DNA from: Sedimenticola sp.
GTDB taxonomy: Bacteria; Pseudomonadota; Gammaproteobacteria; Chromatiales; Chromatiaceae
NCBI GenBank assembly: GCA_027068915.1
Contig: JAMOLT010000010.1
Coordinates: 372,001 to 436,000, forward strand
DNA: 64,000 nucleotides
Direction of reading: 5' to 3'
Part shown: positions 11,500 to 30,903 of the stretch, in pieces
Numbering within the stretch: the stretch's first letter is position 1
How the letters are laid out: the number at the start of each line of letters is the position of its first letter
The notes under the pieces: model-generated
The model's input: only the letters and a program-made list of their open reading frames with translations
Database searches by the model: none
Told to the model about the DNA's origin: nothing
Made by a program: the position numbers and the translations under genes

Positions 11500-13698
11500 T
11501 TATTTGCGATACAGCTCATGTATCGGCTTTCGGGAAAGCCTGCGCTTGAGTTTTCTCTGCACATTAACCGGCACCAGCCTGGACACAAAACGACCAACCC
11601 GTCCCTGTCTCAGGGCCAGAAGATGCATCAGCAAACGCTCTTTACGGCTCAATCGCCCCTGCCTGCCTTCCGCATTCCTGGATTGAAGCAGCAGCTTGCC
11701 CAGCCAGCTATCATCCATGGCAGGTACTTCTTTTTCCTCAGCTAAATCTGTCTCTGACAGATAGCTGTGACGATAAAATCTTTCTCCTTCACGGGACACA
11801 GGCTGATCCTGCCAAGGTTGCGCATGGGGGCTTTTGTTTTCCAGATAGTCCCGCATTTCCACGAACCACTGCAGCCATTGTTCGGGGGAGCTATCCCATG
11901 ACTCTATCCAGGTCAGGGGACGATTCTGCAGACGCTCGGGAAAAGCACCGATATCCGGCGCCACGATGGGCAGTCCGGTCAGGAGCATTTCACTCAGGGT
12001 ATAGCTGTAGGTTTCCGGCCACTGTGCGGTAAACCATACCAGGTCAGGCTGCAATTCCTGCAAATGCCGGGGCAGATCCGCCTCGCTGTAAGCCCCATGC
12101 TCGATAATGGCTTCTGAAAGAGGCCGATAGGCATACCCCAGCAGATGAAATTCCAGTGGCGCAGATTTTTTGCGCGCCGCCACTGCCACAGCCTCAAGGA
12201 TGTCTGCACCTTTTTCGGGACTTAATGCCCCCAACACCAGCACCCGCAAAGGACGTTCTCCTCGATAAGAATTTTCCACAGCCGGCCAGGGCATGTGCTC
12301 TTCGCTGTCGGGGTGCCAGGCGACCAGATAATTCAGATCAGGATAATAGCGCTGGAACTCCCGCACCACCCAGGCGGAAGGTGCAATCACCCGTTGCGCC
12401 TTTTGCAGCAACTGCCGTTGGTTGTCCTGCCATTCCTCCAGGCTGACGGCCAGGGGATAGGAACTTGATTGGGCATCGAGGTTCGGCGTGTAGCGGCCTT
12501 TTGCATCAGTCTGGCTGGGATGCGCATTGATAAAATAATAGTCATGCAAGGTGACATCAAAAGGCAGCTGCAAGTCACCCGGCACCCCCCACAGGCAGGT
12601 TTCCAGTCCCAGGGTATGGTGAAAATGCAGACGGCTTACCCCAGCCATTCGCAAAAATTCCAGCAGCTGCGGATACATTTGCGGCAGAGAAAAAAACAGG
12701 CCCGGCGCCTCATCGGTCGCGCCAAAGAAAAGCATGGCGCCGCCGCCTTCCACCGGACGGATCACCAGGGTATCCATATCATCCGCCAGCCATGCTGACA
12801 GCTCGCGGATATGTTTTTTGGTGCCACCGCCCAGATGATGGGTGAGATGCAGCACCTTCTTTCGCGGCGAAGTACGCAACATTTCCAGTAGCACCCGGGT
12901 ACGCTGAAGCCGCGCTGGATTCTGCTGGATATGTTTTTCCACCAAAGCATGATAATCAGGATGCAATTGCTGCAGTATTTCCTGAGCATGGGCGATGCGC
13001 TCCGCCTGTTCATCAGAAAAGCTCACGCCACCTTCATGAAAAACAAATACATCGCAGCACAGGACATTACGCCAACCCAGCTTCGCAGCCCGGCGGCAAA
13101 AATCGTTTTCCTCACCATAACCGCGGCCAAAGCGCTCCACATCAAACAGGCCGGTTTCCTGCAGGCACTGGCGACGAATATACTGACAAAAACCCACACC
13201 GGTGGGAATATCCACCACCTCACCGGCATTGACCCGGCGAAACAAGGCATCCAGCGCCGCCACATCCCACTGATCCGGCAGGGCGCTGGACTGACAAAAT
13301 CTCGGGAAGCTGCAGATCGTGGCATTGTTGGAGAAAGGGGTCAGGGTACCAATGCGCTCATCCCCTTCTGCGGCGGCCATCAGCCGATCCAGCCAGTCGT
13401 TGGCGACTTCGGTATCGCTGTTGAGCAACACCACATCGTTATCTTCGCTCAGAGCCATGCCGCGGTTGACCGTAGCGACAAACCCCATATTTTCATCATT
13501 TTCCAGCAGGATCACCTGCTCATGAGCCGAAGCGAACTGCCGCAAGTCTTCGTGTATATCGGGATCAGGCGAGGCATCATTGATGATCACCAGGCGATGG
13601 GGCCTTTTCTGGAGACTGTTTACCACAGATTTCAGGCAACACCGCAACTCTTCCCGCCCCCCATACACAGGAACGATAATATCCACTACCGGTTTCAT
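11500..13698 (-). CDS. Bifunctional glycosyltransferase, GT2 domain fused to GT4-like domain
   Basis: 732 residues. Residues 1-240 are a GT2 domain: VDIIVPVYGGREELRCCLKS, LVIINDASPDPD, VVLLNSDTEV (DxD-type site) and GYGEENDFCRRA. From about 280 a second, GT-B-type domain begins with VLHLTHHLGGGTKKHIREL and contains LRVLVLGALSPEKGADILEA and TYSYTLSEMLLTGLPIVAPDIGAFPERL, the nucleotide-sugar binding half of GT4 enzymes. The protein could therefore add two successive sugars. Its start overlaps the sulfotransferase stop by 4 bp. It carries no membrane helix. Confidence 0.9.
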   Translation of the reverse strand: MKPVVDIIVPVYGGREELRCCLKSVVNSLQKRPHRLVIINDASPDPDIHEDLRQFASAHEQVILLENDENMGFVATVNRGMALSEDNDVVLLNSDTEVANDWLDRLMAAAEGDERIGTLTPFSNNATICSFPRFCQSSALPDQWDVAALDALFRRVNAGEVVDIPTGVGFCQYIRRQCLQETGLFDVERFGRGYGEENDFCRRAAKLGWRNVLCCDVFVFHEGGVSFSDEQAERIAHAQEILQQLHPDYHALVEKHIQQNPARLQRTRVLLEMLRTSPRKKVLHLTHHLGGGTKKHIRELSAWLADDMDTLVIRPVEGGGAMLFFGATDEAPGLFFSLPQMYPQLLEFLRMAGVSRLHFHHTLGLETCLWGVPGDLQLPFDVTLHDYYFINAHPSQTDAKGRYTPNLDAQSSSYPLAVSLEEWQDNQRQLLQKAQRVIAPSAWVVREFQRYYPDLNYLVAWHPDSEEHMPWPAVENSYRGERPLRVLVLGALSPEKGADILEAVAVAARKKSAPLEFHLLGYAYRPLSEAIIEHGAYSEADLPRHLQELQPDLVWFTAQWPETYSYTLSEMLLTGLPIVAPDIGAFPERLQNRPLTWIESWDSSPEQWLQWFVEMRDYLENKSPHAQPWQDQPVSREGERFYRHSYLSETDLAEEKEVPAMDDSWLGKLLLQSRNAEGRQGRLSRKERLLMHLLALRQGRVGRFVSRLVPVNVQRKLKRRLSRKPIHELYRK

Positions 13699-14855
13699 TT
13701 CCTGTCCAGAAAAAACAGTCTGCGCACCAGCTTCACGGCAGGATGACTGCGCAGCGCATTCAGCTCTGTGGTTACCTGCTGCAGCTGATCATCCCGTTCC
13801 TCAACGATAGACCTGGTGTATTCCAGATCCTCAAACAGGCTGCGCAGTTGTGTTTCCCGCTCATCAACCACGGATGCAGCATGCTCCAGCTCAGCTGCCA
13901 ATTCCCCCAATTGCTGATCTTTTTCTGCAACCACCGCCAGGGCCAGCCCATGCTCTTTCCCCAATATCTGCAAATCATTGTTGATGGCAAATATCTGGCG
14001 GGTAGTCTCTTCCAGATCAAGAGCAAGCACAGGGCACTCCTCCAACAGTTTGTCGAAATCCTGCCAGACCTCATCCAGCGCTGCTTCATTCAGCTTTTCC
14101 ATCTGAAGCAGGTGGTAGGCCCGCGTTGTTTGCCTTGTGATCTCTCCACCCACTTCATCAGAATGTGCACGTTGATGGTGCAACCCCGGGTCAATCTCTG
14201 CCGCGACAGCGTCAGCTGCCGATTCTAACGATTGTGGCCAGACAATCCCCAGCAAGCTGCCAGTTCGGGATAACACAGTAGCCCAGTCATCCAGCAAAGC
14301 TGCATAGTCCACGCAGCTGCGTGGCAAATCACGGCTGGTTTTTTCACTATCCCGCGTGTAGCGCAACCACAACAGATTGGCACTGGTGGTGCTCAATGGA
14401 TCGCGGCGACACAGGGATGCCGACACCTCCCAGGGAGCACGGGAGGCTAGAATAGCCACGGGCCTCCACCCCGCCTGGCGTGCCGCTTCTTTCCAGAATG
14501 GCAGGAGCAGGCACAGGCGCGGGTCTTTGACCACCGCCAAAGGTGCATCATCGGCAAACGCCGTTTTCAGGAAAGTGACAGCCTGATTCCTCAACTCGGC
14601 AAACCGATCACCAGACCACCAGTGCTCTGGCAGTGGCCGGAAGTCATACCAGTTTCTCTCCAGCACACCCAGCAAGGCTTCATTGATCGCAATCAGTTCC
14701 TCATGTTCCCAGAAGCCCCGGGCATTGATGTCAGGCTGCGCCTGCAACAGATTTGTGCCCACGTCAGCGCCAAGCAGATTCAACACCCTGGTCAACACCG
14801 AGGTTCCGCTACGGTGCATGCCCAGCACCAGGATCAATGTCCGGCCTTCAGGCAT
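13695..14855 (-). CDS. Sulfotransferase-family protein with C-terminal coiled coil
   Basis: 386 residues. The N-terminus LILVLGMHRSGTSVLTRVLNLLG is the PAPS 5'-phosphosulfate loop (GxHRSGTS) of sulfotransferases; VVKDPRLCLLLPFW matches the 3'-phosphate binding region. Residues from about 280 form a coiled coil with repeating ERDxQLxxL units (EKDQQLGEL, ERETQLRSL, ERDDQLQQV), ending in HPAVKLVRRLFF, a tail seen in several polysaccharide enzymes. It probably sulfates a surface glycan or sets chain length through its coiled coil; this is inference. First gene of a two-gene unit with the GT2-GT4 protein. Confidence 0.85.
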   Translation of the reverse strand: MPEGRTLILVLGMHRSGTSVLTRVLNLLGADVGTNLLQAQPDINARGFWEHEELIAINEALLGVLERNWYDFRPLPEHWWSGDRFAELRNQAVTFLKTAFADDAPLAVVKDPRLCLLLPFWKEAARQAGWRPVAILASRAPWEVSASLCRRDPLSTTSANLLWLRYTRDSEKTSRDLPRSCVDYAALLDDWATVLSRTGSLLGIVWPQSLESAADAVAAEIDPGLHHQRAHSDEVGGEITRQTTRAYHLLQMEKLNEAALDEVWQDFDKLLEECPVLALDLEETTRQIFAINNDLQILGKEHGLALAVVAEKDQQLGELAAELEHAASVVDERETQLRSLFEDLEYTRSIVEERDDQLQQVTTELNALRSHPAVKLVRRLFFLDRK

Positions 14856-14953: not shown

Positions 14954-16813
14954 ATGAATGATACAGTGAACTACAACTTTTCTTATAGCTATAACCTTGG
15001 CTCCGCGCCCCAAACACAAAAAGAAGAAGAGCTGATAGCCTTTGATGACTGCCAGGAGTTTCCGCTGCCCGACCAGCGGATACTGATTCGTAGCAAACAC
15101 AGCGGCCAGCAAATCATAGTCACAAACGACGTATTGTACTCTCTGTACCTGTGCCGGGAGTTCAAAACCATGACGGAACATGCGGAACATCTAGGCCGGG
15201 AAATACCTGAATTGAAGGACGAGCAGGAGGATATCCGCCAGGCGCTCACCAGCACTCGGCAGGCCGGCCTGATGCTCTCTGCTCAACACAAGGCAACAAG
15301 CATTAAGCCCGCAGCCATCTCCCACCCTTGTCCGCAAGGCTTGTGCTTCTGCATCCTTAGCTGCGACCGCACAGAATCACTTTCCCGGTTACTGGAAAGC
15401 ATGGCCGCCAGCCACCAGTTTCTTGCGCACAATCTCTATTATGTCGTTGATGATTCCAGGCAGCAGGATAACCGGAACAGCAACCAAAGTGTCTGCAAGG
15501 AATTCTCCATCACTCACGGGGTAGAGCTGCGCTATTTTGGCATTGAAGAGCAAAACAACATTTTGAGGCAGCTCAAAAAACAACTGCCTGAACATGCCCG
15601 GGGCATTGATTTTCTCCTGGGGCGTTACCAGGATAATCCAGCCATCCCCTCCTATGGCCGCACCCGCAACTGGGGGCTGCTGCTGGGCGCTGGACGCAAG
15701 GTGATGCTTATCGACGATGACATATTGTTCCAACGCATTGATCCCCCGGAAAACCATGAGGGAATCACCATTACCTCCAAGCCACGAGGAGCAGAGTTTT
15801 TCTGTTCCGATAGCGAGTGGCGCGCGCTGTACAATACGGAAAACACGGATCCCAGCGCAAATATTTTCAGTGCTGCATTGAGCACAACACTGGCGGAAGC
15901 ACTTTCCCTGGCCGGAACAGAGATACTCCAGCAACGCACCTTGCGCAACCTGCATCCGGCGGATTTTCCCCATGTGAACGCCGATTCCAGGATCTTGCTG
16001 ACCTCCTGTGGCTATGCTGGGGATCCAGGCACCACATCCAACACCTGGATCTATCAGCTGCCAGAAGGCTACCGAAAGCGCCTGCTCGCATCAGAAAAAG
16101 AGTATCGGCACCACATTACCGCACGAAACACCTGGCTGGGCAGCTTTGCCCCGGCGTTTCGGCGCCAGTTTTCCCTGATGTCCCCAATGATGGGTATCGA
16201 CGCCAGCCACCTGACGCCCCCCTTCTTTCCCCTGTATCGAAACGAAGATCTGCTGTTTGGGCAAATGCTGCATTTCCTGCATCCCGATGGCTTGTTTCTG
16301 GATGCCCCCTGGGCCGTACCTCATCTCCCTGCAGAACACAGACAATGGGAAAAAGGCCTGGCACTCGCATCCCAAAATTATAGCCTGCTGGATTTTTCCT
16401 CAGATGCCCTGGCCCTCGACCCGCCATCATTTCTCCCAGATCCTCCAGGCGAGCGCTTACAGGCTTGCAGCAGTTTTTTTTCCAGCCTCGGCAAACTGTC
16501 AGACGAAATGCTGACAGATCAGATCGCCCGGCTAACTCTGGGGCTGCGCACCGCACAAAGCTGCAGAATACAACAAGTGCTGGAAACCAGTGGAGATGCA
16601 CCGGATTTCTGGAAGGACGACCTGCAAGACATTATACAGGCCGGCAGGCAAAGCCTGGCCATGCCATTGCCAACCGGCTTCCGGGGCATGCCGGGCAAGG
16701 AGGACGAGCAAAGAGCCCTGGCGCGCATACTATGGACAAGCTTTGCACAAGGCATCCAGGCCTGGGAGGCCTGTATGGAGATCATGCAAAAATCTCAGAC
16801 AGAAGCCTCATAA
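14954..16813 (+). CDS. PqqD/RRE-like domain fused to GT-A-like glycosyltransferase
   Basis: 619 residues, no close family recognised. Residues about 36-110 (RILIRSKHSGQQIIVTND, then LYSLYLCREFKTMTEHAEHL and a last helix ending AGLML) have the strand-turn-helix layout of PqqD, the RiPP recognition element. From about 130 a GT-A-like domain follows: LCFCILSCDRTESLSRLLESM, YYVVDDSRQ, then VMLIDDDILF at 250-259 as DxD metal site, and FPLYRNEDLLFGQML near the expected acidic base. The last 130 residues are helical. It is the only plus-strand gene of the locus, divergent from the sulfotransferase by 98 bp and overlapping the ABC ATPase gene by 19 bp tail to tail. Confidence 0.7.
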   Translation: MNDTVNYNFSYSYNLGSAPQTQKEEELIAFDDCQEFPLPDQRILIRSKHSGQQIIVTNDVLYSLYLCREFKTMTEHAEHLGREIPELKDEQEDIRQALTSTRQAGLMLSAQHKATSIKPAAISHPCPQGLCFCILSCDRTESLSRLLESMAASHQFLAHNLYYVVDDSRQQDNRNSNQSVCKEFSITHGVELRYFGIEEQNNILRQLKKQLPEHARGIDFLLGRYQDNPAIPSYGRTRNWGLLLGAGRKVMLIDDDILFQRIDPPENHEGITITSKPRGAEFFCSDSEWRALYNTENTDPSANIFSAALSTTLAEALSLAGTEILQQRTLRNLHPADFPHVNADSRILLTSCGYAGDPGTTSNTWIYQLPEGYRKRLLASEKEYRHHITARNTWLGSFAPAFRRQFSLMSPMMGIDASHLTPPFFPLYRNEDLLFGQMLHFLHPDGLFLDAPWAVPHLPAEHRQWEKGLALASQNYSLLDFSSDALALDPPSFLPDPPGERLQACSSFFSSLGKLSDEMLTDQIARLTLGLRTAQSCRIQQVLETSGDAPDFWKDDLQDIIQAGRQSLAMPLPTGFRGMPGKEDEQRALARILWTSFAQGIQAWEACMEIMQKSQTEAS

Positions 16814-17481
16814 GCCGCCAGCACCTCCCCGGCCTCGCCCTGCATACGGGAAACCCCCTGCTCGATCCACACCACGCGGTCACAGAGCTTTGCCATCACC
16901 TGGGTATTGTGCGACACCAGAATGACGCTGCGGTTGGAACGGATTCTGCGCTGAATCTCTTCCGAAGATTTCTTGCGGAAAGCCGCATCACCCACCCCCA
17001 GCACTTCGTCAATAAGCAATACATCCGGATTCGCCTGCATGGCTACGGAGAACCCCAGGCGGGCGCGCATTCCTGCGGAATAGCTGGACACAGGCTCGTC
17101 GATAAACTCTTCCAGCTCGGCAAATGCCACCAGTTCATCCATGTTTTCCTCGATGCGGGATTTTGGCGCACCCAGCAACATCCCGGACAATATTGCATTC
17201 TCCCGCCCGGTGAGCAAGGGGACAAAACCCACCTGCAAGGACAATAAAGAGGCGCTGACGCCGGCATTGCGGATCTGTCCCCGGTCGGGTGCAATGATGC
17301 CGGCAATCACCTTCAGCAAGGTGGTCTTGCCAACGCCGTTGCGACCGATTACCCCCAGGGTTTCACCATGCCCGAGGGAAAGGGAAATGTCCTTCAATGC
17401 CCAATACAGCTCCCCGCTGCGCAAGCTGCGCCCGCGCCGGTACGCGACACCCACATTCTCTAGGGCAAGAACCGGATTCAC
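16795..17481 (-). CDS. ABC-2 polysaccharide exporter ATP-binding protein (Wzt/KpsT type)
   Basis: 228 residues. Walker A GRNGVGKTT, signature YSAGMRARLGFSVAM and Walker B DVLLIDEVLGVGD are present; YSAGM with DEVLAVGD-like Walker B is the hallmark of the polysaccharide/teichoic-acid exporter ATPases. It lacks the C-terminal carbohydrate-binding domain of Wzt proteins that read a terminal cap, so it is closer to KpsT/TagH in build. It powers export of a finished glycan across the inner membrane. Overlaps the permease gene by 4 bp and the plus-strand 619-residue gene by 19 bp. Confidence 0.93.
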   Translation of the reverse strand: MNPVLALENVGVAYRRGRSLRSGELYWALKDISLSLGHGETLGVIGRNGVGKTTLLKVIAGIIAPDRGQIRNAGVSASLLSLQVGFVPLLTGRENAILSGMLLGAPKSRIEENMDELVAFAELEEFIDEPVSSYSAGMRARLGFSVAMQANPDVLLIDEVLGVGDAAFRKKSSEEIQRRIRSNRSVILVSHNTQVMAKLCDRVVWIEQGVSRMQGEAGEVLAAYEASV

Positions 17482-18233
17482 GCCAGCCTCGGATAGAGAC
17501 GATCATAACGATGCAGCAGAAACAGCCCCAACCAACACATGGCAACAGAAAACAGCAGCACCACAATCAAATGGAACATATCCGGCCACTGCCCGAACAG
17601 CAGCACATCCCGCCAGGCATGGATAATATGCACCATGGGATTGAGATCCAGCAACATGCCCAGCCAGCCTTGCAGATTGCTGGTATCGAAAAACACGCCC
17701 GACAGAAAGAACATGAGCATCAGCACATTGTTCATCAGCAATTTGAGATCAGGGTACAAAGGCGTAAGCGCAGCAACGCTGAATGTCACCCCGCATACCA
17801 GCAACAGCTGCGCCACTAACAGCAGGGGAATGGCCAGCCACGACCAGGATCCCACCCCGTAGAACAGCAGAAACAGCAGCAACAATCCCAGCGTTACCAG
17901 AAATTTCACCGTATTCTTGAGAATCACCACCGCCGGGAAAAAAACCTTGGGCAGGTACACCTGGGACATCAGCCCCTTGCCGGCGGTAATGGCATTCAGG
18001 GACATGCGCACGGTGGTATCGAACCATTTCCAGGCCACCAGACCGATAAGCAGCCAGGGTACGAAATGCTCCCCGCCCCGCTGCAAGGCCACGGAAAAAA
18101 TAATATAGAACGCCCCCATGTACAACACCGGCTCCAGCACCCACCATAACATTCCCATATAGCCTCTGGCGGCTTCCACCTTGAGGTCAGCCCTGGCCTT
18201 GTACAAAATCAGCTGCAGATAGTGGGGTGTCAT
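17478..18233 (-). CDS. ABC-2 polysaccharide exporter permease (Wzm/KpsM type)
   Basis: 251 residues with six membrane helices; starts MTPHYLQLILYKARADLKVEAARGYMGMLWWVLEPVLYMG, with the conserved amphipathic N-terminus and WWVLEP motif of ABC-2 glycan permeases. LNPMVHIIHAWRDVLLFGQWP near the C-terminus is also typical. I start at the ATG at 18233 because it overlaps the upstream stop as ATGA; longer frames lie in coding sequence of the neighbouring gene. Forms the membrane channel with the ATPase encoded next. The pair implies a lipid-linked polymer made completely in the cytoplasm before export. Confidence 0.93.
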   Translation of the reverse strand: MTPHYLQLILYKARADLKVEAARGYMGMLWWVLEPVLYMGAFYIIFSVALQRGGEHFVPWLLIGLVAWKWFDTTVRMSLNAITAGKGLMSQVYLPKVFFPAVVILKNTVKFLVTLGLLLLFLLFYGVGSWSWLAIPLLLVAQLLLVCGVTFSVAALTPLYPDLKLLMNNVLMLMFFLSGVFFDTSNLQGWLGMLLDLNPMVHIIHAWRDVLLFGQWPDMFHLIVVLLFSVAMCWLGLFLLHRYDRLYPRLA

Positions 18234-19057
18234 GATGTTTTTCCGATACGAAACAACAATGGCACTTCCAGCACCTTGGGGTGAGAGATGCCATGCTCCC
18301 ACAGCCCATCCTCTCCCCAGCAGTCGCCATGATCGGCACAAATAACCACAGTGGCATCTGCAAACGCATCCAATAACACTTTCAGTTGCCCATCCACCCA
18401 TTCCAGTGCCAATACCTGCCGCCGACGGGATTCAGCAGCATCATTGTCCTTAGCAAAAGGCACACAGGGGTTCTCCTGTGGTGACCAGGGCGCACCTTCA
18501 AAGTAATACGGCACATGGGTTTCACCAATATTCAAAAAAGCAAACACCGGCAGACCCCGGTCATCCAATTGCTGAGAAAGCCACTGTAGTTGCTGGGGCA
18601 GCGTCCAGGTGACACAGGGATCGCCCGGATAGTAAAAATGCTGGAAATCCGCAATGAGATTGCCTGCGGTTTCCGTCTCCGGGTTGAACCAGGCCACTGC
18701 ACCCGTACCAATGGTGCGGTAGCCCTTGCGGCTAAAACCATCAACAATATTTCGCCCTTGCAGCAAAAAGTATTCCTTGCCCTTGCCCGCAATGCCACCT
18801 TGACCCATGCGGAACAATTTGCCGTATTTGGGATTGACCCCGGTGATGCAGGACTGGGCATCTCCGGGAGTAAACCCCATAAACATGGCCATATGGGAAG
18901 AATAGGTAAAATTCCCGGGCGCCTGTGCGCAATAGACGTTTCCAATCCGCCCAAATACAGGCAGATTTGCAGAAACAAAGCTGTCGTAGCGGCAGGAGTC
19001 CAGGGTGATGAACAACACAGATTGCGCGGATTGCCTGGGAAAGCTGGGATTCTGCAT
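18230..19057 (-). CDS. Sulfatase/alkaline-phosphatase superfamily enzyme
   Basis: 275 residues from the ATG at 19057. VLFITLDSCRYDSF gives the first metal-binding aspartate and the nucleophile position; VVICADHGDCWGEDGLWEHG carries the later metal ligands (D-H-G and H). There is no CxPxR formylglycine motif, so it is not a standard sulfatase and may be a phosphodiesterase, phosphoglycerol or phosphoethanolamine transferase relative. No signal peptide or membrane helix is seen, hence probably cytoplasmic. A GTG at 19090 gives a longer version but lies in the T-run of the upstream terminator. Overlaps the exporter permease by 4 bp. Confidence 0.8.
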   Translation of the reverse strand: MQNPSFPRQSAQSVLFITLDSCRYDSFVSANLPVFGRIGNVYCAQAPGNFTYSSHMAMFMGFTPGDAQSCITGVNPKYGKLFRMGQGGIAGKGKEYFLLQGRNIVDGFSRKGYRTIGTGAVAWFNPETETAGNLIADFQHFYYPGDPCVTWTLPQQLQWLSQQLDDRGLPVFAFLNIGETHVPYYFEGAPWSPQENPCVPFAKDNDAAESRRRQVLALEWVDGQLKVLLDAFADATVVICADHGDCWGEDGLWEHGISHPKVLEVPLLFRIGKTS

Positions 19058-19141: not shown

Positions 19142-20035
19142 TCAGGGCGTCAACACAGGCCTATCGGTAAAGGCTTTGAACGCATCCTCATTGACCCTGG
19201 CCTCGGGATCATTCTTTACCTTCAGCCAGTAATCAACCTTGATCTCGTGTGCAACCTTGTTCTTTGCCTTCTGAACCAACGCATCCTTCACTTCGGAAAA
19301 CGGCTTGGTATGTGCAGGTGTATGCTCTTCCAGCAGAATAAGATGATACCCAAAGCGGGTTTTTACCGGCTCACTGATTTCTCCCGGCTTCAACGCCAGC
19401 AGCGCTTCCTCAAAAGGCTGCACCATGCGTCCACGGTTGAACGTGCCCAGAGAACCACCAGCTTTGGCGCTGCCTGTATCCTTGGAGTACTGCTTTGCGG
19501 CTTCCTTGAAATCCAGCTTGCCTTCGACAATCTGTTTGCGCAGAGCATTGGCCCGCTCCAGCACCGACTCGTCTGCTTCATCGGTCTCTGCGCTCAACAA
19601 TATATGGGAGGCCACAAATGATTCCGGCACTTTCAGCCTGTCTTTTTCAGTGATGTACAGCTCTTTGGCGGCGGCTTCATAATTTGCATTGTCCACCAAT
19701 TTTGCCTGCACATCGGCAATTTCCGCTTCCGCCAGAATGTTATTGGTGAACTTCCATATCTGCGCAGCAACTACCGGATCCTTGTCCAGGCCCTTCTTCC
19801 TGGCTCTGGTCGCTGCCACCTTGGCCATGTAGGTGCTGTCCATCACCTCACGTACTTTCTTGGGTTGAACCAGCAGCAGTTTCAGCACATCTTCCGGAGC
19901 AGTCCGTAGCGCCATGCGCAACTCTCCCAAGGTAAGATCCACCTCCGGACCATCAATTAGCACCTGACTATCATCCAGAGAATATGCGGCAACAGGCACT
20001 AGCAACAACAGCAAAATAACAATTTTGTTCATCAT
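19142..20035 (-). CDS. Periplasmic parvulin-type peptidylprolyl isomerase
   Basis: 297 residues with a signal peptide (MMNKIVILLLLLVPVAAYS). A helical N-terminal chaperone region is followed by a parvulin domain starting at about residue 140: VASHILLSAETDEADE, then AAKQYSKDTGSAKAGGSLGTFNRGRMVQPFEEAL and PVKTRFGYHLILLEEH, all standard PpiC/PrsA signatures. It speeds cis-trans proline isomerisation during folding of exported proteins. Related parvulins (EpsD-type) occur in exopolysaccharide/PEP-CTERM loci, and this one sits between glycan genes and secreted-protein genes. Monocistronic, with its own terminator. Confidence 0.92.
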   Translation of the reverse strand: MMNKIVILLLLLVPVAAYSLDDSQVLIDGPEVDLTLGELRMALRTAPEDVLKLLLVQPKKVREVMDSTYMAKVAATRARKKGLDKDPVVAAQIWKFTNNILAEAEIADVQAKLVDNANYEAAAKELYITEKDRLKVPESFVASHILLSAETDEADESVLERANALRKQIVEGKLDFKEAAKQYSKDTGSAKAGGSLGTFNRGRMVQPFEEALLALKPGEISEPVKTRFGYHLILLEEHTPAHTKPFSEVKDALVQKAKNKVAHEIKVDYWLKVKNDPEARVNEDAFKAFTDRPVLTP

Positions 20036-20127: not shown

Positions 20128-21015
20128 TCAATAGAAAACGCTGTACCTTCCAGATGTTGGGCTGGTAACACGCAGGTAATAGATAACATCCGGCTGCGCA
20201 TGACATTGGTAAGCCACATCAGATGTATTCAGGTACAAGTTTCCTGTTTTTATTGTTTTGGTGCAATCCGGATCAGCAGAATCCCTTACGTAACTTGTGC
20301 TCAGGGAAACCGTCATAGGGCCAGACAAGTAATCAAATATGAGATTTTCAAAGTCGCTTCTATTTTCCGGCTTGATCGTCCACACTTGGGTGGTATTGAA
20401 ATCAATAGGTACGGCATATTGCTCGCCATTCAGGGTAAGATCCAGCTCCCCCCTGCAAATAATGGTAGTGGTTGGCGTGCAGGCGCCACCCGGAGGGGGA
20501 TCCGCCACATCATTCACTGTCACAGCAAATGTCAGGGTAGCAGACTGGCCGGCAGCATCAGAAACGAAGACACCAAATGAGTCCAGAGTGTTGCTGTCAA
20601 CCCGAGCATTGGCGGCAGAATAAGAAACATCGTAAGTCAAATCCGCAGCAACACTGATTGACGCTACAGCGCCTTGCATAGGCGGGTTGTTTGAATCCAG
20701 TTGTATGTTAATCGGTGGCGTAAGCGTCACACCGTCGAGAATGGATTTGGTCAGCGCGGTATAGCTCCCTTCATCAATACTGCCCATGTCAATCTGGGAA
20801 GAAACCAGATTGCCCATCCCGGAACCACAGTCTCCATCCATGCCCACTGTCAACTGGCTGGTGGTGGTGGACATATTAACAAGGTTTCCACTACAGAGCA
20901 CACTCCCATTCCCGTCATTTATTTCTACGGTAACGGCAGCCACTGCAAGTTGCGAAGACAAAACACCAACGCAAAACACGGGAACCGCACTTGCCAAAAA
21001 CAACCTTAAACCCAT
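20128..21015 (-). CDS. Secreted beta-rich protein of unknown function
   Basis: 295 residues. Signal peptide MGLRLFLASAVPVFCVGVLSSQLAVA, then an all-beta mature chain. VSISVAADLTYDVSYSAANARVD and ATLTFAVTVNDVADPPPGG resemble cadherin- or Ig-like strands. Four later cysteines (ACTPTTTIICR, DPDCTKTIKTG, AYQCHAQ) probably form disulfides. No catalytic motif. It has its own terminator and is separated by 189 bp from the next secreted-protein gene. A plausible type II secretion substrate or surface protein, but no direct evidence. Confidence 0.75.
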   Translation of the reverse strand: MGLRLFLASAVPVFCVGVLSSQLAVAAVTVEINDGNGSVLCSGNLVNMSTTTSQLTVGMDGDCGSGMGNLVSSQIDMGSIDEGSYTALTKSILDGVTLTPPINIQLDSNNPPMQGAVASISVAADLTYDVSYSAANARVDSNTLDSFGVFVSDAAGQSATLTFAVTVNDVADPPPGGACTPTTTIICRGELDLTLNGEQYAVPIDFNTTQVWTIKPENRSDFENLIFDYLSGPMTVSLSTSYVRDSADPDCTKTIKTGNLYLNTSDVAYQCHAQPDVIYYLRVTSPTSGRYSVFY

Positions 21016-21204: not shown

Positions 21205-22647
21205 TTAGGGACCACTGGTAATGGTAGCAGCATTGAACACGGTAACGCCAGCTGCAGAGCCTGATATCATGCGCTCGTATGCGTGGTTTACGGCCGAACC
21301 GTAAGACGCGCCGACACCAACATTGCTGTTACCCAGAACGGTAGCCTTGAAGCCGATTACCGGCAAACCGGAATAGGTATTGTTGCTACCGGTCAACTGG
21401 TGCCCAACGGAGGCAAAGCCAATCTTGCTCCAACCAGCAACCCCTGGCAAACCGGCAGTAGCAAGCTTGCTTGTGGTATTGGTGGCGCTGAATACATTGG
21501 AATCGTCACCGAACTCGATTACGTTAGCCTCGTAGCACAGGGAAACCCTTGCCTGAGGTGGACGAGGAGAAACGGTAGAACCAGTTGCTTCTTTTTCCGC
21601 TTCTTCACGATCCCAGCTGGTAATGGTGATCTCTTCACAAGCCATGCCATCTTCCAGGCCCGCAGCGCTCGCTCTAAATACGGAGGTAAAGGGCGCAACA
21701 GGAGGCAGGGCAGTCTCATTAGGATCGACATACTTGCTCTTGGTCGGGAAGGTCACGATCCAGGCGGTTTCTGCTTCAGTCGCAGGGTTTGCACTGTACT
21801 CGTTGAGCAAAGAGGAAGCCATGAGAACGGCGGAAACCGCGTCTGTACCACTCATCCAGTTATCTTCGTACACAGTAACGGTGCCGGCAGCAGAGTCGCT
21901 GTTGATAACAACACTGACGGGATCAGCATCCTGCCAATCTGGACGCAGGGTGCCTGGCTCATTATGGGCAGGACGGGACAGGAAGTTCTCCAGTACGGTA
22001 GCAGGAACAGTTACCTGTGTACCGGACTGCACGTTGATGATACCCAGGGTACCGAACAGGCCGCCTTCAGGAGCACGTACTGTGGAATTTGCAGCCATGC
22101 TGCCGTTGATCCACGCCTGACGAATCGCCGCGCAGTTATCGGGAACACCAGCCGCAGTGTGGATGTAATCCTGCAGGCCGTTGTTGTCCAGATCCATGTC
22201 TACGATAGTAGCCATTTCGATAACGGTGAAGTAACCTTCGCGGGTACGCTCGATGCCGGTAGGACCGCCATCGGTGAACAGCAGGTCACGGAAAACTTCA
22301 GGGTTGGTATCCATGGTGGTACAGCTGTTGTCCGGGGTAAACACCTCGGCGCCGCCGTTGGCGGAATCCTGGATCTTGGCGACCCAAACGTCATAGGGAG
22401 ACAGGTATACATGGAAATCAAGAACTTCACGAGTATTGTAAGCTTCGCGGAAACGAACCTTAACGGCTTTACCTTGATTAGTTGTGTTAACGATGGAGAG
22501 CAGAGTCTCTTCGTTACCTTGAACGGTGAAGTAAGGGAAAACCAGCACTTCACCAGTACCATCGGTACTTACGTTGACTGCCTGCGCAGAACCTGCACCA
22601 AGTGCGGCCAGAACTGCTACGGACAGGATTTTCTTTTTCATCTTCAT
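21205..22647 (-). CDS. Large secreted protein, probably abundant
   Basis: 480 residues. Signal peptide MKMKKKILSVAVLAALGAGSAQA, then TGEVLVFPYFTVQGNEETLLSIVNTT, a start seen in a family of uncharacterised gammaproteobacterial secreted proteins. The mature part is beta-rich with paired cysteines (NSCTT, DNCAA, MACEE, SLCYE) and no enzyme motif. Signs of strong expression: AAGGAG 9 nt before the ATG, a long AT-rich leader with an extended -10 promoter at 22780, and a strong terminator. The sequence fits a surface-layer-like or matrix protein exported by the nearby type II system; that is inference. Confidence 0.8.
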   Translation of the reverse strand: MKMKKKILSVAVLAALGAGSAQAVNVSTDGTGEVLVFPYFTVQGNEETLLSIVNTTNQGKAVKVRFREAYNTREVLDFHVYLSPYDVWVAKIQDSANGGAEVFTPDNSCTTMDTNPEVFRDLLFTDGGPTGIERTREGYFTVIEMATIVDMDLDNNGLQDYIHTAAGVPDNCAAIRQAWINGSMAANSTVRAPEGGLFGTLGIINVQSGTQVTVPATVLENFLSRPAHNEPGTLRPDWQDADPVSVVINSDSAAGTVTVYEDNWMSGTDAVSAVLMASSLLNEYSANPATEAETAWIVTFPTKSKYVDPNETALPPVAPFTSVFRASAAGLEDGMACEEITITSWDREEAEKEATGSTVSPRPPQARVSLCYEANVIEFGDDSNVFSATNTTSKLATAGLPGVAGWSKIGFASVGHQLTGSNNTYSGLPVIGFKATVLGNSNVGVGASYGSAVNHAYERMISGSAAGVTVFNAATITSGP

Positions 22648-23041: not shown

Positions 23042-23521
23042 TCAATTAGGCGAAACCCACCAGTTGCCATCCGACAGGATCCATTTTTCCTGAAAGCGGG
23101 AAGTCATTTCCTGGCCACGCATCTGTGCGATATCCCCCACATAGAGATAGCCAAGGAGGATGCTGACCTTGCAAAGCTCTTCTTCACATTCCACTTTCTC
23201 TACATTGGCGGATTTGCGTATGATCGCCCCTCCTTTCATGCGGTTGGCATACACCTCGAACGGTTTGAGCGAGCGCGTGGCCGGCGAAAAAAAGCCATAG
23301 GCCTTTTTCCAATCCATGGCAATGAGCGCGTCCATATGCTCCTGGGCTCGTTGCTTTACGACTTCTTCTTTTGAGAGCTGTGTCACATCTGCAACACCAT
23401 CTTGCATATTTGCAACTTTGCCATCATTTTCACTACAACCCGTAACAATCACCACTAGCGCCAACGTCACCATAAGCGCTGTCATTCGCCGGAATTTACA
23501 GAATAACCCATACTTTCTCAT
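23042..23521 (-). CDS. Hypothetical lipoprotein downstream of gspD
   Basis: 159 residues. An N-terminal hydrophobic segment ends in a lipobox, VIVTGCS, so the mature protein should start with a lipidated cysteine. The rest (HMDALIAMDWKKAYGFFSPATRSL, then KWILSDGNWWVSPN) has the helix-strand pattern of small NTF2-like or DUF4878-like domains. Start ATG overlaps the gspD stop as ATGA, so it is translated with the secretion operon. It could help target or stabilise the secretin (a pilotin-like job), but its fold does not look like known pilotins. Confidence 0.75.
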   Translation of the reverse strand: MRKYGLFCKFRRMTALMVTLALVVIVTGCSENDGKVANMQDGVADVTQLSKEEVVKQRAQEHMDALIAMDWKKAYGFFSPATRSLKPFEVYANRMKGGAIIRKSANVEKVECEEELCKVSILLGYLYVGDIAQMRGQEMTSRFQEKWILSDGNWWVSPN

Positions 23522-25812
23522 GGTTGATCAACCTCTTTCGCCCGATCCTGATTTTCCACCGATGTGCCATATACCCGCTCGCCGCCATGGGCCCGGATCA
23601 CACCGGCTTCTTCAAGAAATTCCTGCTTCAAACCCTGCATGCGGGTGCGGAAATCACGGGTAATGTCCAAGGCGTCGTTGGCACTGGTAATCACCCTGGG
23701 GGTGAGAACAATGACCAGTTCCACCCGCTCGTTACCTGTTTCCGTAGAACCAAACAGCGCGCCAAATATCGGAATTTTATAGATAAAAGGCACTCCGCCC
23801 TCTGCATTGGTGCGCTTGTCCCTGATCAATCCGCCAAGCACCACGGTCTGGCCGCTCTGCACCGCCACGGTGCTGTTGATCTCACGGGTCTGAATGGTGG
23901 GCTGATTGGTCTGGATTTCCGTATCCGCCACGGCGCTCACTTCCTGGGTGACTTCCATGGTCACCAGGCCACCGGGATTTACCCTGGGCTTTACGGTGAG
24001 AATAATGCCGGTCTGGCGGTACTGCACGGTTTGGATGATATTGCCGGCATCGGTGGACTGGCTTTGGCTGAGGGTGGGCACTTCATCGCCCACGCGGATC
24101 TTGGCTTCGTGATTGTCCAGCACCATCACCGAAGGCGCAGACAATACATTGACCAGGGAATCGTTGGCAAAGGCATTGAGCACTGCCTTGACCGCCCCGG
24201 TGCTGTCGATGAGAGACCAGTTGAAGCCATTAAGCAAATTGCTGATCCCGTCGATCTTGGTGCCGGACGACGTTCCACCGACACCGCCGACACTCTGCTT
24301 GCCGCTGCCTACGCCGCCATCAAAGAACCAGGAAATGCCGTATTTCAGCTTGTCCTTAAGCAACACTTCCACGATGGTTGCTTCGATATGCACCTGCAAG
24401 GGCACGATGTCCAGCTGCTCCAGGGTGCTCAGCACTTTCTTGTAGTCTCTGGCAGACGCCAGAATCAACAGGGTATTGTGGTTTTCATCCGCGACCACGC
24501 GGATTTCGCCTTCGAGGGCGCTGGTGTTGCCACTGCCAGCGGAAACGCTCTTCTTGGCGGTGGCAGGCGGTTTTTTTGCCTTGGCCACGGTGCTTTTCTT
24601 ATCCTTCGACGCTACCGTGGTGCTTTTCAGCCCGGGCGCGACACTTGCGGATTTGGTCTTTTTGCTGGCGCTCTTACCAGTAAAGAGTTCGTTCAGCAGG
24701 CCAGCCAGGTCTTCCGCCTTGCCGTTGCGCACCCGGTAGACGAACAGGCGCTGTTCATCACCAGACTGGGTCATGGCATCAAAGCGTTTGATCCATTTCC
24801 CTACTTCTTTCAGGTATTCTTTTTGTGGCGTAACCACCAGAAAACCATTGGCGCTTTCGATGGGTGTAATGCGCACCAGGCCACCCAGAGCTTTGCCGGC
24901 ATCGCCGCCCAGCACAGCGTCCAGATCTTTCTGCACGTCTTCCACGCTGCCGTTTTCCAGCACGAAGAAGCCCACAGACAAGCCTTTCATCCAGTTCACA
25001 TCAAAGGTGTCGATCACTGCCAGCATTTGTTGCAAATCACGGGCATTACCGGACAGGATCAGCAGGTTGCGCTTGGGATCCACCCTTACGATACTGTTGT
25101 CCCGCACCAGGGGCTTGAGGATTTCGTTCATTTCCTCGGCGCTGATATTTTTCAGGGGGCGAATCTGCAAGCTGTGGCCGAAAGGCAGCGGAGTTGTCGA
25201 GTCCGCCAGTTGCGGCGTCATCAGTCCCTTGTGCGCCTTGGTCACAGGAAGTACATGATAGACGCCGTCCTGCTTTACCAGGGTTGCATTGTTCATGCGC
25301 AACAGGGTTTCCAGCAGAGGAAGAAGATCCTTGCGGGAGACCGGCGCGCCGGTTTGCATGCTTACGCCGCCACGCACCCCGGGATCGACAATGTAGCCAA
25401 GCTGCAGGGTATCGCCCAGGATCACCTTCACCACTTCACGAATATCGGTGTTCTCAAAATTCAGGGTGATGTCTCGCTTGTTGCTGAACACGGGCGCCTT
25501 GGTGGCGACTTTTGGGGCAGCAGGCTTGCCAATCAGTTTTCCGCTACCCGTAACCTGCCAATCCTGTGCAATGGGCAAAACAGCTCCGTCTTCCCGGGGA
25601 GTGACTGCAGCAATGCTTTTTGCCAGATCGGTTCCCTGTTTGGCTTCCAGCGCGCCACTGGCGGTGTTTACCGGAACGGGAGGGAGCGCGGCAGATTCCT
25701 GCTGCTGCGCTTTCACGAAAGGAAACGACTGACAGGCACCGAGGGAAAGCGCTGCCAGCATGAGCAACAGCCCTCGGCCAATACGGTGATGGATGGACAC
25801 GGTGTTATTCAA
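23518..25812 (-). CDS. gspD: Type II secretion system secretin GspD
   Basis: 764 residues. Begins at TTG 25812, supported by AAGGA 8 nt upstream. The signal ends with a lipobox (LSLGACQS), so this secretin is probably a lipoprotein. After a low-complexity linker come N0 (ITLNFENTDIREVVKVILGD), N1-N3 ring domains with VIRVDP-like repeats, and the C-terminal beta-barrel with VPTLSQSQSTDAGNIIQTVQYRQTGIILTVKPRV and VVLGGLIRDKR. An unusual Lys/Ser/Ala-rich insert at about residues 395-430 lies between ring domains. It forms the outer-membrane pore. Near the end of a long operon. Confidence 0.95.
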   Translation of the reverse strand: MNNTVSIHHRIGRGLLLMLAALSLGACQSFPFVKAQQQESAALPPVPVNTASGALEAKQGTDLAKSIAAVTPREDGAVLPIAQDWQVTGSGKLIGKPAAPKVATKAPVFSNKRDITLNFENTDIREVVKVILGDTLQLGYIVDPGVRGGVSMQTGAPVSRKDLLPLLETLLRMNNATLVKQDGVYHVLPVTKAHKGLMTPQLADSTTPLPFGHSLQIRPLKNISAEEMNEILKPLVRDNSIVRVDPKRNLLILSGNARDLQQMLAVIDTFDVNWMKGLSVGFFVLENGSVEDVQKDLDAVLGGDAGKALGGLVRITPIESANGFLVVTPQKEYLKEVGKWIKRFDAMTQSGDEQRLFVYRVRNGKAEDLAGLLNELFTGKSASKKTKSASVAPGLKSTTVASKDKKSTVAKAKKPPATAKKSVSAGSGNTSALEGEIRVVADENHNTLLILASARDYKKVLSTLEQLDIVPLQVHIEATIVEVLLKDKLKYGISWFFDGGVGSGKQSVGGVGGTSSGTKIDGISNLLNGFNWSLIDSTGAVKAVLNAFANDSLVNVLSAPSVMVLDNHEAKIRVGDEVPTLSQSQSTDAGNIIQTVQYRQTGIILTVKPRVNPGGLVTMEVTQEVSAVADTEIQTNQPTIQTREINSTVAVQSGQTVVLGGLIRDKRTNAEGGVPFIYKIPIFGALFGSTETGNERVELVIVLTPRVITSANDALDITRDFRTRMQGLKQEFLEEAGVIRAHGGERVYGTSVENQDRAKEVDQP

Positions 25813-25934
25813 TCTACATTTCCTTATTTAATAAGCGCGGGATAGTAGCACATACCACTCCGTGCTGAAACACAGCGGCCTGGCCCGCATTTCTCACCGG
25901 GGTTCGGGATTTCCGGCCCGGTGAGAAATGCCGG

Positions 25935-26528
25935 CTAGGGTTTGGGGATAGCAGGCTTGGGTGCAGCTTTGCCCGCATTATTGTTTTTCTTTGCAACTCG
26001 CGGCTTGGGCACAGGTTTGACCGGCACTACCGGCCTGTAGTTCCGCAGCAGCAGCTCCTCGGTTTCGCTGCCATTGCTCAGCACCAGCCGATCGGCATCG
26101 ATGCGGGTTACTTTCCAGCCATCCACTTCTTCGCCGACACGTACCCGCCGGGAGCCTTTTTGCCTACCCCCCTTTACCAAAGCATATTTCTGCTTGCCAA
26201 TGATGATGATCGCGCTCAACTGCATCCGCGGCTTTCCCACCTTGCGCGTCGGCTTGATTGGCGATTTCTTGCCTGGCGGTGCGGGCACATAGGGTGGTGG
26301 CGGGCGGCGCTTGTTGAAAAACAGCGGGCGTTCGGCAATCGGCTGATAGACTGCTTGCGGCGGGAAGCCGGAAACCCTGTCCATACTGTCCAGCAAGGTC
26401 TTGATCTCATCCCCCTTTTGCTCTTGCACCGCATTCGCTGCGACTTTCGGGATCTGCGGCGGAAAGTACCAGCGCCAGGCAAGAAAACCAAGTAGCAATA
26501 CGGCTATTGTCAGCCACAGCTTCTTCAT
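25935..26528 (-). CDS. GspC/GspP-like inner-membrane protein of the type II system
   Basis: 197 residues: one N-terminal membrane helix (LWLTIAVLLLGFLAWRWYF), a proline-rich spacer with RPLFFNKRRPPPP, then a small beta domain MQLSAIIIIGKQKYALVKG and RRVRVGEEVDGWKVTRIDADRLVL that matches the HR/PilP-type fold of GspC. The tail is rich in Lys/Pro/Ala. There is no PDZ domain. GspC-type proteins link the inner-membrane platform to the secretin, and its place directly before gspD fits that. Overlaps gspM by 4 bp. Confidence 0.75.
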   Translation of the reverse strand: MKKLWLTIAVLLLGFLAWRWYFPPQIPKVAANAVQEQKGDEIKTLLDSMDRVSGFPPQAVYQPIAERPLFFNKRRPPPPYVPAPPGKKSPIKPTRKVGKPRMQLSAIIIIGKQKYALVKGGRQKGSRRVRVGEEVDGWKVTRIDADRLVLSNGSETEELLLRNYRPVVPVKPVPKPRVAKKNNNAGKAAPKPAIPKP

Positions 26529-27106
26529 TTTCCTCCCCCCGGGAGATACCCCACCAGGCCGAAGCTCACATCCAGCTCATAGCCTTCTACGCGATTCTGG
26601 CGCCGTCCCTTGACCGTGCGGCGACTGCGTATGGAGATATTCTGCACCATGATGATGGGCAGCTGCCCTTCCAGTTCGTGCAAAACCTTGGCCAGGGCCT
26701 CCACATCTCCTTTCATGCGCACTTTGATCTCGATTTCCTGAGTGTCGCCGTCCTTGTCCGCATCAAGCTTTTGGGTGCTGATCAGCTTTCCCCCTGCCCC
26801 GGTAATGATTTTCTTTACCCGGTTCTGCAGCTCTGCCGCCGCCAGCTCCGGGTTTGCTGCAGCGATAAAATAGTTACGTTTGCGCAAATCCTGACGCAGC
26901 GCCTTGAGACGCTTTTCCAGCAGGGGACGGCTGTCGAGAAGGCGCTGATAACGCTCGATATGATCCACTGACTGGCTGGCGGCAGCATCATAAAACTGCA
27001 TCTTGGACCACCAAGGCAGAAAAATCATGGCCAGAACAAACGCCACAGCCAGGAACAGGGCACCCAGCAACAATACGCATTTCCCATTATCAGTTCGCAG
27101 GTTCAT
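26525..27106 (-). CDS. gspM: Type II secretion system protein GspM
   Basis: 193 residues: one membrane helix near the N-terminus (VLLLGALFLAVAFVLAMIFLPWW), a helical stretch YQRLLDSRPLLEKRLKALRQDLRKR, then a ferredoxin-like domain with EIEIKVRMKGDVEALAKVLHELEGQLPIIMVQNISIRS. This is the GspM/PilO layout; the protein binds GspL in the inner-membrane platform. Stop and start codons overlap with both neighbours (TAATG upstream, ATGA downstream). Confidence 0.85.
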   Translation of the reverse strand: MNLRTDNGKCVLLLGALFLAVAFVLAMIFLPWWSKMQFYDAAASQSVDHIERYQRLLDSRPLLEKRLKALRQDLRKRNYFIAAANPELAAAELQNRVKKIITGAGGKLISTQKLDADKDGDTQEIEIKVRMKGDVEALAKVLHELEGQLPIIMVQNISIRSRRTVKGRRQNRVEGYELDVSFGLVGYLPGGGK

Positions 27107-28440
27107 TATCCACTAGCCCCCGACACCATGCGTTGCGGCGGCATGGCGGACGGACTGGGCCGGGGAGCAGCCCGCTCCATGTCCGTCCCATATTCAACTA
27201 CCGGCATGGGCGCCGGAGCTGGCGGTTGCGCTGGTGCCGGAACAGGCGCGTTTCCGGTGCTGGCTGGTTCAACGGCAGGCATAGATGGAGCGACTTTGCC
27301 CTCTTTCACTTGCCCTGCAGGTGGCGCTCCCGTTGTTGGCGCGGGCGCGGGCGTTGCCGCCGCTCCCTGTTCCCCGGCGGACGCTGTAGCGACGCCGGTC
27401 AGATCACGGGGAAACGGCATATTGATATTGGCAGCAAGGTTGAATACTTCCTTGCCGCGCTGCTGGGTAACCGGCGAAAGAAAATGTGGATTATCGAAAG
27501 CAGGAGAATTCTGCAGCAAGCCGATCAACGAAGACGCGGAGCTGGATGTGCCGTTGATGGTCAGGGTCTTGCCCTTTACTTCCATGCGTTGCAGTGAGGT
27601 GTCGTCCGGCAGCAAGTTGGTCAACACTTGCAACACATCCAGCACTGGCGGGAAGGTCTGCCATTGATCACGAATCACTTCCAGAGCCTTGATCTCTTCG
27701 TCCGCCCGCTCACGCAATTCCATGACCTTACCCGCCTTGCCACGCAGTGCCGCCTCTCTGGATTGCAGGGAAATTGCTATTTCGCGCTTCTGCCACAAGG
27801 GCAGCGCCATTGCAGTGGCCAGTAGCACAACCACCAGGGCTGCCGGCGCCATACGCTGGGCCAGGCGCTTTAGGTTCAGCCTGGGACGCAACGCTGGCGG
27901 CAGCAGGTTTGCATCATCCCACAGACCAGCAGCGCTGAGGCTGTCTACCGCTATACCCGCCGAACGCAACACACCCAGCCAGTCGTCCACTCGCTTGCGC
28001 GGCACCAGCGCCACTTCCACCGGAAGCATGTCTGCGCCTTCCCTGCGGGCATTGAGGTGGAAGTCGAAATACACCTGCTCAGCGGAAAAGGGAGTGAAGC
28101 GATCCAGTTCGAAACTGATTACCTGGCGCAGATTTTCCCGGGCTGCCGCAGGCAAGGCAATGGTGCGACTCAGCAACCAGTCAACAGGAAGCAAGACAGC
28201 AAGAGGATGTTCATGAGACTTGAGCAGGGCGGAAACGGCAGGATCGACAACTGTACTGCCCAGAAGGACTTCGCCCAGTTTCTTGCCATCCCGGTACAGC
28301 TCGGCGCGTTCCCCCCGTATTTCCAGGATGTAGGGCGTAACGCCGGAAGCAACACGTTCGGCCAGCGCTCCAGGCAGACAGGCCAGCAAACGCTGCCGCC
28401 AGAAGCGAAGCCTGGCCAGACTGGAAAAATTCATGTCCAT
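27106..28440 (-). CDS. gspL: Type II secretion system protein GspL (PilM/PilN-like fusion)
   Basis: 444 residues. The first 190 residues (LGEVLLGSTVVDPAVSALL, VLLPVDWLLSRTIALPAAARENLRQVISFELDRFTPF) form the actin-like cytoplasmic domain of GspL/PilM. A membrane helix (ALVVVLLATAMALPLW) follows and then a PilN-like periplasmic domain with LLPDDTSLQRMEVKGKTLTINGTSSSASSLIGLL. About 90 C-terminal residues are Pro/Ala-rich, longer than usual. GspL anchors the GspE ATPase to the membrane. Confidence 0.87.
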   Translation of the reverse strand: MDMNFSSLARLRFWRQRLLACLPGALAERVASGVTPYILEIRGERAELYRDGKKLGEVLLGSTVVDPAVSALLKSHEHPLAVLLPVDWLLSRTIALPAAARENLRQVISFELDRFTPFSAEQVYFDFHLNARREGADMLPVEVALVPRKRVDDWLGVLRSAGIAVDSLSAAGLWDDANLLPPALRPRLNLKRLAQRMAPAALVVVLLATAMALPLWQKREIAISLQSREAALRGKAGKVMELRERADEEIKALEVIRDQWQTFPPVLDVLQVLTNLLPDDTSLQRMEVKGKTLTINGTSSSASSLIGLLQNSPAFDNPHFLSPVTQQRGKEVFNLAANINMPFPRDLTGVATASAGEQGAAATPAPAPTTGAPPAGQVKEGKVAPSMPAVEPASTGNAPVPAPAQPPAPAPMPVVEYGTDMERAAPRPSPSAMPPQRMVSGASG

Positions 28441-28442
28441 CT

Positions 28443-29375
28443 TCAGCCTTCTTCCTGCTGGAGCGCTACCCGCCCCAGAGACTGAAGTTTGCCGAATTTT
28501 TTCTGTAACAACATATAACCTTTGCGTGTCTTGGATTCGATGCCAACAACCATTTCTCCCTGGGACTTTCCTCCGCCAGAGAGATCCACTTCGGCAACCA
28601 GCCGAAAGCGTGTGCCTTTGCCCACCTTCAAAAAGGCGCCGCCAAATGCCGGAGCGGGAACCGGCAGCCCTTGCTCCAGTGCCTGCTGGCGCTCAAGCAG
28701 ATATTGGTCGACCTGCACCGGCGTTACACCGGGTATGGCCAGCAACACCGCTCTGGAGGCAAATGCGGGATTGACTGTACGTTGCCGCGCATCCACGGTC
28801 AATGCCCCGGCCAGCTTTTTGTATAACTGAGGAGTGATTCCTGCGACCTGCTGCAACTCTTCGATAGACAGAAACACCCCGTCACGAGCGCCGATGGGAC
28901 GCCCCAGGGCACGATAGTCCCGATCCTCTGCGCCCTGGGCGTGGGTGGCGTTATCAGGATCACGCCAGTCCAGGATCGCATCCCGCACCGCCATTGCCTG
29001 CTCCTCTTCCAGCCCGAAAGACTCCAGCAGGCTTTGCAGCATCTGCGCATTCACCTGATTGAGATCGATGCGCGCATTTTCCGGCATGGCGCCGATCCAG
29101 ATGGTCTTGCCGGCGAATGTCCAGGGGTGCAAACGCCCGTCCACCGGCCAGGGATTGTCCTCAGGGGAACGGGCGCGCCTTTCCAGCATCAGCATCATGA
29201 AATTCAACCCGGCGCTGACCAGCGCCCTTCCCTCACGCTCCTGGCGAATGTTGCTGGTCATGGCAACCCCGGTGCGCTGTACCATGGACATGGAGCCGGC
29301 GATCACGCTGAGCAATACGATTACCCACAATACCAGCACCAGGGCGATTCCCTTTTGTCGTACCGACCTCATCAT
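28443..29375 (-). CDS. gspK: Type II secretion minor pseudopilin GspK
   Basis: 310 residues from the ATG at 29375, two bases after the gspJ stop. The prepilin site is MMRSVRQKG / IALVLVLWVIVLLSVIAGSM with the hydrophobic helix typical of GspK, which lacks Glu at +5. The large globular insertion with RIDLNQVNAQMLQSLLESFG and the helix-hairpin-helix-like VDQYLLERQQAL fits the family. GspK caps the pseudopilus tip with GspI and GspJ. An ATG at 29414 would add 13 residues overlapping gspJ. Confidence 0.9.
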   Translation of the reverse strand: MMRSVRQKGIALVLVLWVIVLLSVIAGSMSMVQRTGVAMTSNIRQEREGRALVSAGLNFMMLMLERRARSPEDNPWPVDGRLHPWTFAGKTIWIGAMPENARIDLNQVNAQMLQSLLESFGLEEEQAMAVRDAILDWRDPDNATHAQGAEDRDYRALGRPIGARDGVFLSIEELQQVAGITPQLYKKLAGALTVDARQRTVNPAFASRAVLLAIPGVTPVQVDQYLLERQQALEQGLPVPAPAFGGAFLKVGKGTRFRLVAEVDLSGGGKSQGEMVVGIESKTRKGYMLLQKKFGKLQSLGRVALQQEEG

Positions 29376-29377
29376 AA

Positions 29378-30899: not shown

Positions 30900-30903
30900 T
30901 ACA

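Follow-up and report, generated by a model that had tools for sequence, protein, structure and literature searches.

RRE-GT, a fusion of an RRE domain and a GT75-like catalytic unit that appears tied to a type II secretion surface-protein system

What does an enzyme act on when it carries an RRE, the domain that serves RiPP enzymes as a leader-peptide clamp, in front of a sugar-handling unit? The question is raised by a gene of the deep-sea bacterium Sedimenticola sp., which lies in the window analyzed here (the whole stretch of 64,000 nucleotides) and is referred to as RRE-GT. The features of its product are as follows.

14954..16813, + strand: RRE-GT75-like fusion protein of 619 aa, an uninterrupted ORF with an ATG start
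14972..14998, + strand: YNFSYSYNL (residues 7-15), a conserved motif of the disordered N-terminal tail (pLDDT ~31-33)
15035..15301, + strand: predicted RRE domain, a PqqD-like winged helix formed by residues 28-116 (AlphaFold2, Foldseek, VIA-align)
15326..16807, + strand: predicted GT75-like catalytic unit (GT-A, core, and C-terminal helices), residues 125-618 (AlphaFold2, VIA-align)
15713..15721, + strand: DDD metal motif, residues 254-256, with D254 and D256 invariant in a 21-member alignment
16238..16249, + strand: RNED motif, residues 429-432, putatively corresponding to MtdL R257/D260 by motif alignment, with D432 as putative base
16322..16324, + strand: invariant H457, putatively corresponding to the MtdL metal ligand H287 by motif alignment

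The 619-residue frame, which had been proposed in an earlier note on this DNA, is a real gene, because homologues are present both in the genus and in distant relatives. Within the genus, homologues of 45-94% identity, either full-length or split over two contigs, are found in nine other genomes, and full-length relatives of 20-34% identity are spread across the Gammaproteobacteria, with the family limit at ~20% identity. By its named relatives, the window is placed close to Thiolapillus/Sedimenticola. One carrier, Pseudohaliea rubra DSM 19751 (locus L056), is cultured. No homologue was found in the phage and plasmid collections searched. The RRE and the catalytic unit are conserved to an equal degree (0.54 and 0.56). 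The protein has no match in Pfam (E <= 0.1), NCBIfam, or the PDB sequences, and RRE-GT is therefore unnamed by any sequence family.

RRE-GT stands alone on the plus strand between 6753 and 33999, as the earlier note had stated for the locus, and the Wzm/Wzt exporter and the coiled-coil sulfotransferase that were described as its neighbors are indeed found beside it. The surrounding genes are listed below.

11500..13698, - strand: GT2-GT4 two-domain glycosyltransferase, a partner gene retained in the loci of distant homologues
13695..14855, - strand: sulfotransferase-like protein with a C-terminal coiled coil, the divergent partner gene, likewise retained in distant homologue loci
16795..17481, - strand: Wzt-type ABC ATPase
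17478..18401, - strand: Wzm-type ABC permease, whose true start is probably further in
18230-19090: sulfatase/alkaline-phosphatase-like gene between Wzm and PpiC (PF00884, E 1.2e-07)
19142..20035, - strand: PpiC-type peptidyl-prolyl isomerase, which belongs to the surface-protein module
20128..21015, - strand: P0003, a second secreted protein
21205..22647, - strand: P0002, a secreted surface protein that is unassigned in Pfam and is a candidate for the partner or acceptor
23042-23521: small protein of the type II secretion/P0002/PpiC module
23518..33999, - strand: type II secretion genes GspD, M, L, K, J, I, H, F, and E, recognized or syntenic

The N-terminal domain had been read as following the PqqD/RRE layout over residues 36-110; the fold is borne out, while its boundaries lie nearer 28-116. 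In the AlphaFold2 model of the whole protein (17 sequences, pLDDT 89.5), the domain is built from strands at 28-57, helices at 58-103, and a strand at 107-109, and it reaches a pLDDT of 93 when residues 28-116 are folded alone. Folding it alone is what makes the RRE visible, as the catalytic domain fills the match list and masks it in structure searches with the whole model. VIA-align then matches the RRE to TigE (Z 10.1, 90 aligned), MibB (9.2), MccB (8.5), and NisB (8.1), followed in lower rows by PbtF (Z 7.2) and PqqD (Z 5.0). A Foldseek search against the PDB is led by TigE, TruD, ThcOx, MadB, and TbiB1, with E-values > 0.01 and probabilities of 0.98-1.00. The top fourteen rows of the structure comparison are all RiPP-enzyme chains and thus, unlike one single RRE row, do not represent a chance match. 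The computed winged helix matches the RREs of RiPP enzymes (TigE, MibB, MccB, NisB, PbtF, TbiB1, PqqD) over the whole domain, and the N-terminal domain of RRE-GT is very likely to have an RRE fold. PKMT and MINA53, which lie outside the RiPP enzymes, also appear as RRE-like rows in the VIA-align list; the fold alone is therefore no proof of leader or peptide binding. A discrete 97-aa PqqD-family protein (L122, G000:C61:80370-80570, E 7e-11) is encoded elsewhere in the same genome.

Fusions of an RRE with a glycosyltransferase have been found by genome mining before, in the RRE-Finder work of 2020 (PMC7470986) and its update of 2025 (PMC12710340), and the available text of both papers proposes them as candidate RiPP enzymes and gives them no function. 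By this precedent, and by its RRE fold, RRE-GT could be a tailoring enzyme with a short ribosomal precursor as its glycosylation substrate. The locus argues against such a role. The short precursor that the earlier note had raised is absent from the intergenic gaps, which at 51-491 bp offer little space and in which no RiPP precursor-like small ORF was found, and no RiPP enzymes are present among the neighbors examined. The sole well-conserved small ORF of the locus (8634-8909, 91 aa, beside a GT2 gene) is unlike a RiPP precursor; it is 75-100% identical across the genus and is perhaps a DUF3144 protein. RRE-GT also differs from the RiPP-enzyme RREs in lacking a match to the Pfam PqqD family (PF05402, E <= 0.1), in its GT75-like fusion partner, and in its surface-polysaccharide/type II secretion locus. 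The chance that RRE-GT serves RiPP biosynthesis is accordingly judged to be very slight.

The second domain had been described as a GT-A-like glycosyltransferase. Its GT-A landmarks and DDD254-256 are confirmed, but it is not an ordinary GT2/GT-A enzyme and instead resembles GT75 over residues 125-612. In VIA-align, the whole model matches the GDP-fucopyranose mutase MtdL (Z 23.2, 307 aligned) and the rice UDP-arabinopyranose mutase OsUAM2 (Z 22.1, 317 aligned), and the next family is reached with K4CP at Z 14.9. A plain GT2 reading is rejected, as the GT75 structures stand ~8 Z units above that next family. The match includes the core and the C-terminal helices, which were described as unique by the authors of the MtdL structure (PMC9937993). 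On these computed models, a GT75-like (UAM/MtdL) fold of residues 125-612 is held with high confidence, and structure prediction and fold comparison are in keeping with the nucleotide-sugar pocket that had been expected. The mined fusions are labeled glycosyltransferases and, in 2025, PF00535 (GT2) in the available text of those papers, while the present catalytic unit is GT75-like and unrecognized by Pfam; it is by these descriptions that they are set apart.

In GT75 enzymes, DDD109-111 and H287 (MtdL numbering) bind the metal and D260 is the probable base, while R159 is the self-glycosylated nucleophile that is assisted by D195, both of which are required for the mutase activity of MtdL (PMC9937993). 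RRE-GT was compared with a GT75 alignment built from AtRGP1 (its sequence confirmed by a match to 8cid), OsUAM2, and haloarchaeal and alphaproteobacterial plasmid genes, whose motifs are RG[YL]P, PDxDA, SQN, and RxDD. Profile-profile alignment is weak (E 0.015) and limited to the DDD region, and the catalytic residue map therefore rests on aligned motifs and not on superposition. Among 21 diverse members, D254, D256, E431, D432, and H457 are invariant, and R429 is present in 19. The metal, phosphate, and base positions (DDD254-256, R429, D432, H457) thus appear to be kept. The self-glycosylated arginine seems to be lost: position 352, which is placed opposite R159 by the motifs, is occupied by C/N/T/L/F/A, and no Asp is conserved opposite D195 in the same 21-member motif alignment. 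Independently of the GT75 alignment, no Arg between DDD and RxED is conserved in more than 81% of the 21 members.

RRE-GT thus shares with MtdL and the plant mutases (RGP, CAZy GT75) the fold and the motif-aligned DDD, RxxD, and His. It differs from them in its longer core, its fused RRE, the absence of a conserved autoglycosylated Arg (R159 in MtdL, R158 in OsUAM1) or Asp195, and the absence of a match to the Pfam RGP profile (PF03214), for which searches of its own genome and of 299 genomes from the phylum were also negative. These relations bear on whether RRE-GT is itself an NDP-sugar pyranose-furanose mutase whose furanose products would be used as donors by the glycan genes, the RRE acting as an adaptor. 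The nearest structural relatives are mutases, and the metal and base positions are kept. However, the two residues that MtdL needs are without conserved counterparts, and by motif alignment MtdL D87 faces the invariant Gly235 and Q229 faces a hydrophobic residue. Arginine-adduct mutase chemistry is unlikely in an enzyme that has no conserved core arginine, transfer to an outside acceptor being more likely, and a mutase role is considered highly improbable.

A lead to the acceptor comes from the genomes in which the gene occurs. RRE-GT and P0002 are found together in 13 of 141 related genomes (3.1 expected) and, counted by genus, in 7 (1.4 expected). Kinship inflates the p-value at the genome level, which makes the genus-level and class-wide tests safer. 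In an even sample of the class, P0002 is present in four of six strong RRE-GT carriers compared to 14 of 369 genomes (p 2e-5; p 3e-4 when the own genome is left out). Five of eight further carriers, reached via named loci, also have P0002, on a different contig from RRE-GT. The link is not obligatory, since P0002 occurs without a clear RRE-GT in G029, G076, G100, and G110; RRE-GT occurs without P0002 in G230, G096, G732, G736, and G737, several of which are possibly incomplete. Distant P0002 loci contain GspD and other type II secretion genes, the small protein, and PpiC, and mostly also a glycosyltransferase, a sulfotransferase, or Wzm/Wzt. From this computed co-occurrence, a link of RRE-GT to the P0002/type II secretion system is well supported and probable. 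The fusion is conserved and widespread, and it is tied to a secreted surface protein by co-occurrence; the GT75-like partner of the RRE and the tie to this system appear to be new. The module at 19142-33999 of the window, in which glycan genes usually accompany the type II secretion genes, the small protein, P0002, and PpiC, is found again in many Gammaproteobacteria (L104-L113).

Since its relatives occur alongside a secretion system and an exported surface protein, the enzyme probably decorates that protein or the sugar coat that accompanies it. Our preferred reading, which is tentative and falls somewhat short of an even chance, is that RRE-GT is an RRE-docked GT75-like glycosyltransferase that serves the type II secretion surface-protein system and has a protein as acceptor. 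The enzyme would be a metal-dependent, probably inverting nucleotide-sugar glycosyltransferase with a GT75-like fold and an N-terminal RRE. The system it serves would comprise a type II secretion machine of its own, a P0002-family surface protein, the PpiC foldase, and a glycan that is exported by an ABC transporter and probably sulfated. Within the cytoplasm, the RRE would most likely grip a β-strand segment of a system protein, and the GT75-like domain, its internal arginine acceptor lost, would hand the sugar to an external acceptor. We infer this direction of transfer as well as its cytoplasmic timing, and the likeliest acceptor would be the P0002-type surface protein or its companion.

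The O-antigen-type genes in the same loci mean that the acceptor may instead be a glycan. RRE-GT would then be a glycosyltransferase of an exported O-antigen- or capsule-like glycan, and its RRE would dock on a protein of the polysaccharide machinery such as the coiled-coil sulfotransferase or Wzt, much as the earlier note had considered in its alternative reading. This is possible, if doubtful. Wzm/Wzt adjoin RRE-GT, and the sulfotransferase and GT2-GT4 genes, which are divergent from it in the genus, persist in the distant loci L049 and L051; in L057, the GT2-GT4 gene also adjoins it. Against this, six loci (L050, L052, L054, L055, L056, L058) have no recognized glycan gene near RRE-GT among the neighbors scanned, and several of these genomes contain glycan genes elsewhere. 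A known counterpart in gene layout is the A-layer/wbsalmo locus of Aeromonas salmonicida, which, in the available text of its description, likewise combines Wzm/Wzt and glycosyltransferases with type II secretion genes, a ~49-kDa secreted surface protein, and a protein with a sulfotransferase domain, and in which that text names no RRE-GT (PMC4483657). The comparison concerns the layout. The glycosyltransferase genes of the Aeromonas locus make O-antigen according to the same text, which speaks for a glycan acceptor. The joint occurrence of type II secretion genes, a secreted protein, and an ABC O-antigen exporter in one locus is found here and is kept in distant loci.

A protein acceptor, as preferred above, can be put in a stricter form, namely RRE-guided protein glycosylation outside RiPP biosynthesis. 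In this form, a protein delivered by the RRE would replace the enzyme’s own arginine acceptor, and the surface protein of the type II secretion system would be glycosylated before export; it is regarded as rather unlikely. If it were true, the targets of RRE-guided modification would include exported proteins of full size, and a fold so far associated with mutases would serve a transferase. A relative in G096 (L059 4444-8328, 1294 aa) has no RRE and instead carries a PP-binding carrier domain in front of the GT75-like unit, which is consistent with a front module whose role is to present the acceptor. The N-terminal part of this relative is presumably an FkbH-like HAD part.

The ligand of the RRE might also be sought within the enzyme. 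The tail motif YNFSYSYNL is conserved on par with the folded domains (0.57 compared to 0.36 for the linker), and its S10 is present in all 16 tails aligned. It shows an alternating β-strand pattern, akin to the β-strand ligands of RREs. No second copy was found in the own genome, and the best score among the neighboring proteins (17.0, in a minus-strand ORF, L063/L049) is unconvincing compared to 15.5 for shuffles. The sole known ligand candidate with this motif is therefore the enzyme itself, and the tail could be bound by the RRE of the same chain or of another subunit, where it would act as a regulatory plug or as a primer that the enzyme glycosylates itself. On the other hand, AlphaFold2 places the tail with low confidence, and it is missing from many distant members (L014-L018); a self-ligand is thus thought improbable.

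Further relatives extend the family at its edges. A second family (L031-L039, L096, L097, L114-L118) consists mostly of ~560-690-aa proteins that match the family model over residues 111-243 only and that have no Pfam assignment among the members scanned. Both families are carried by the hosts G007 and G014. At L066 (2502-6231), two members of the RRE-GT family are arranged in tandem, one of which bears an N-terminal CPCGSGKRFKHCHG (SEC-C-like) motif.
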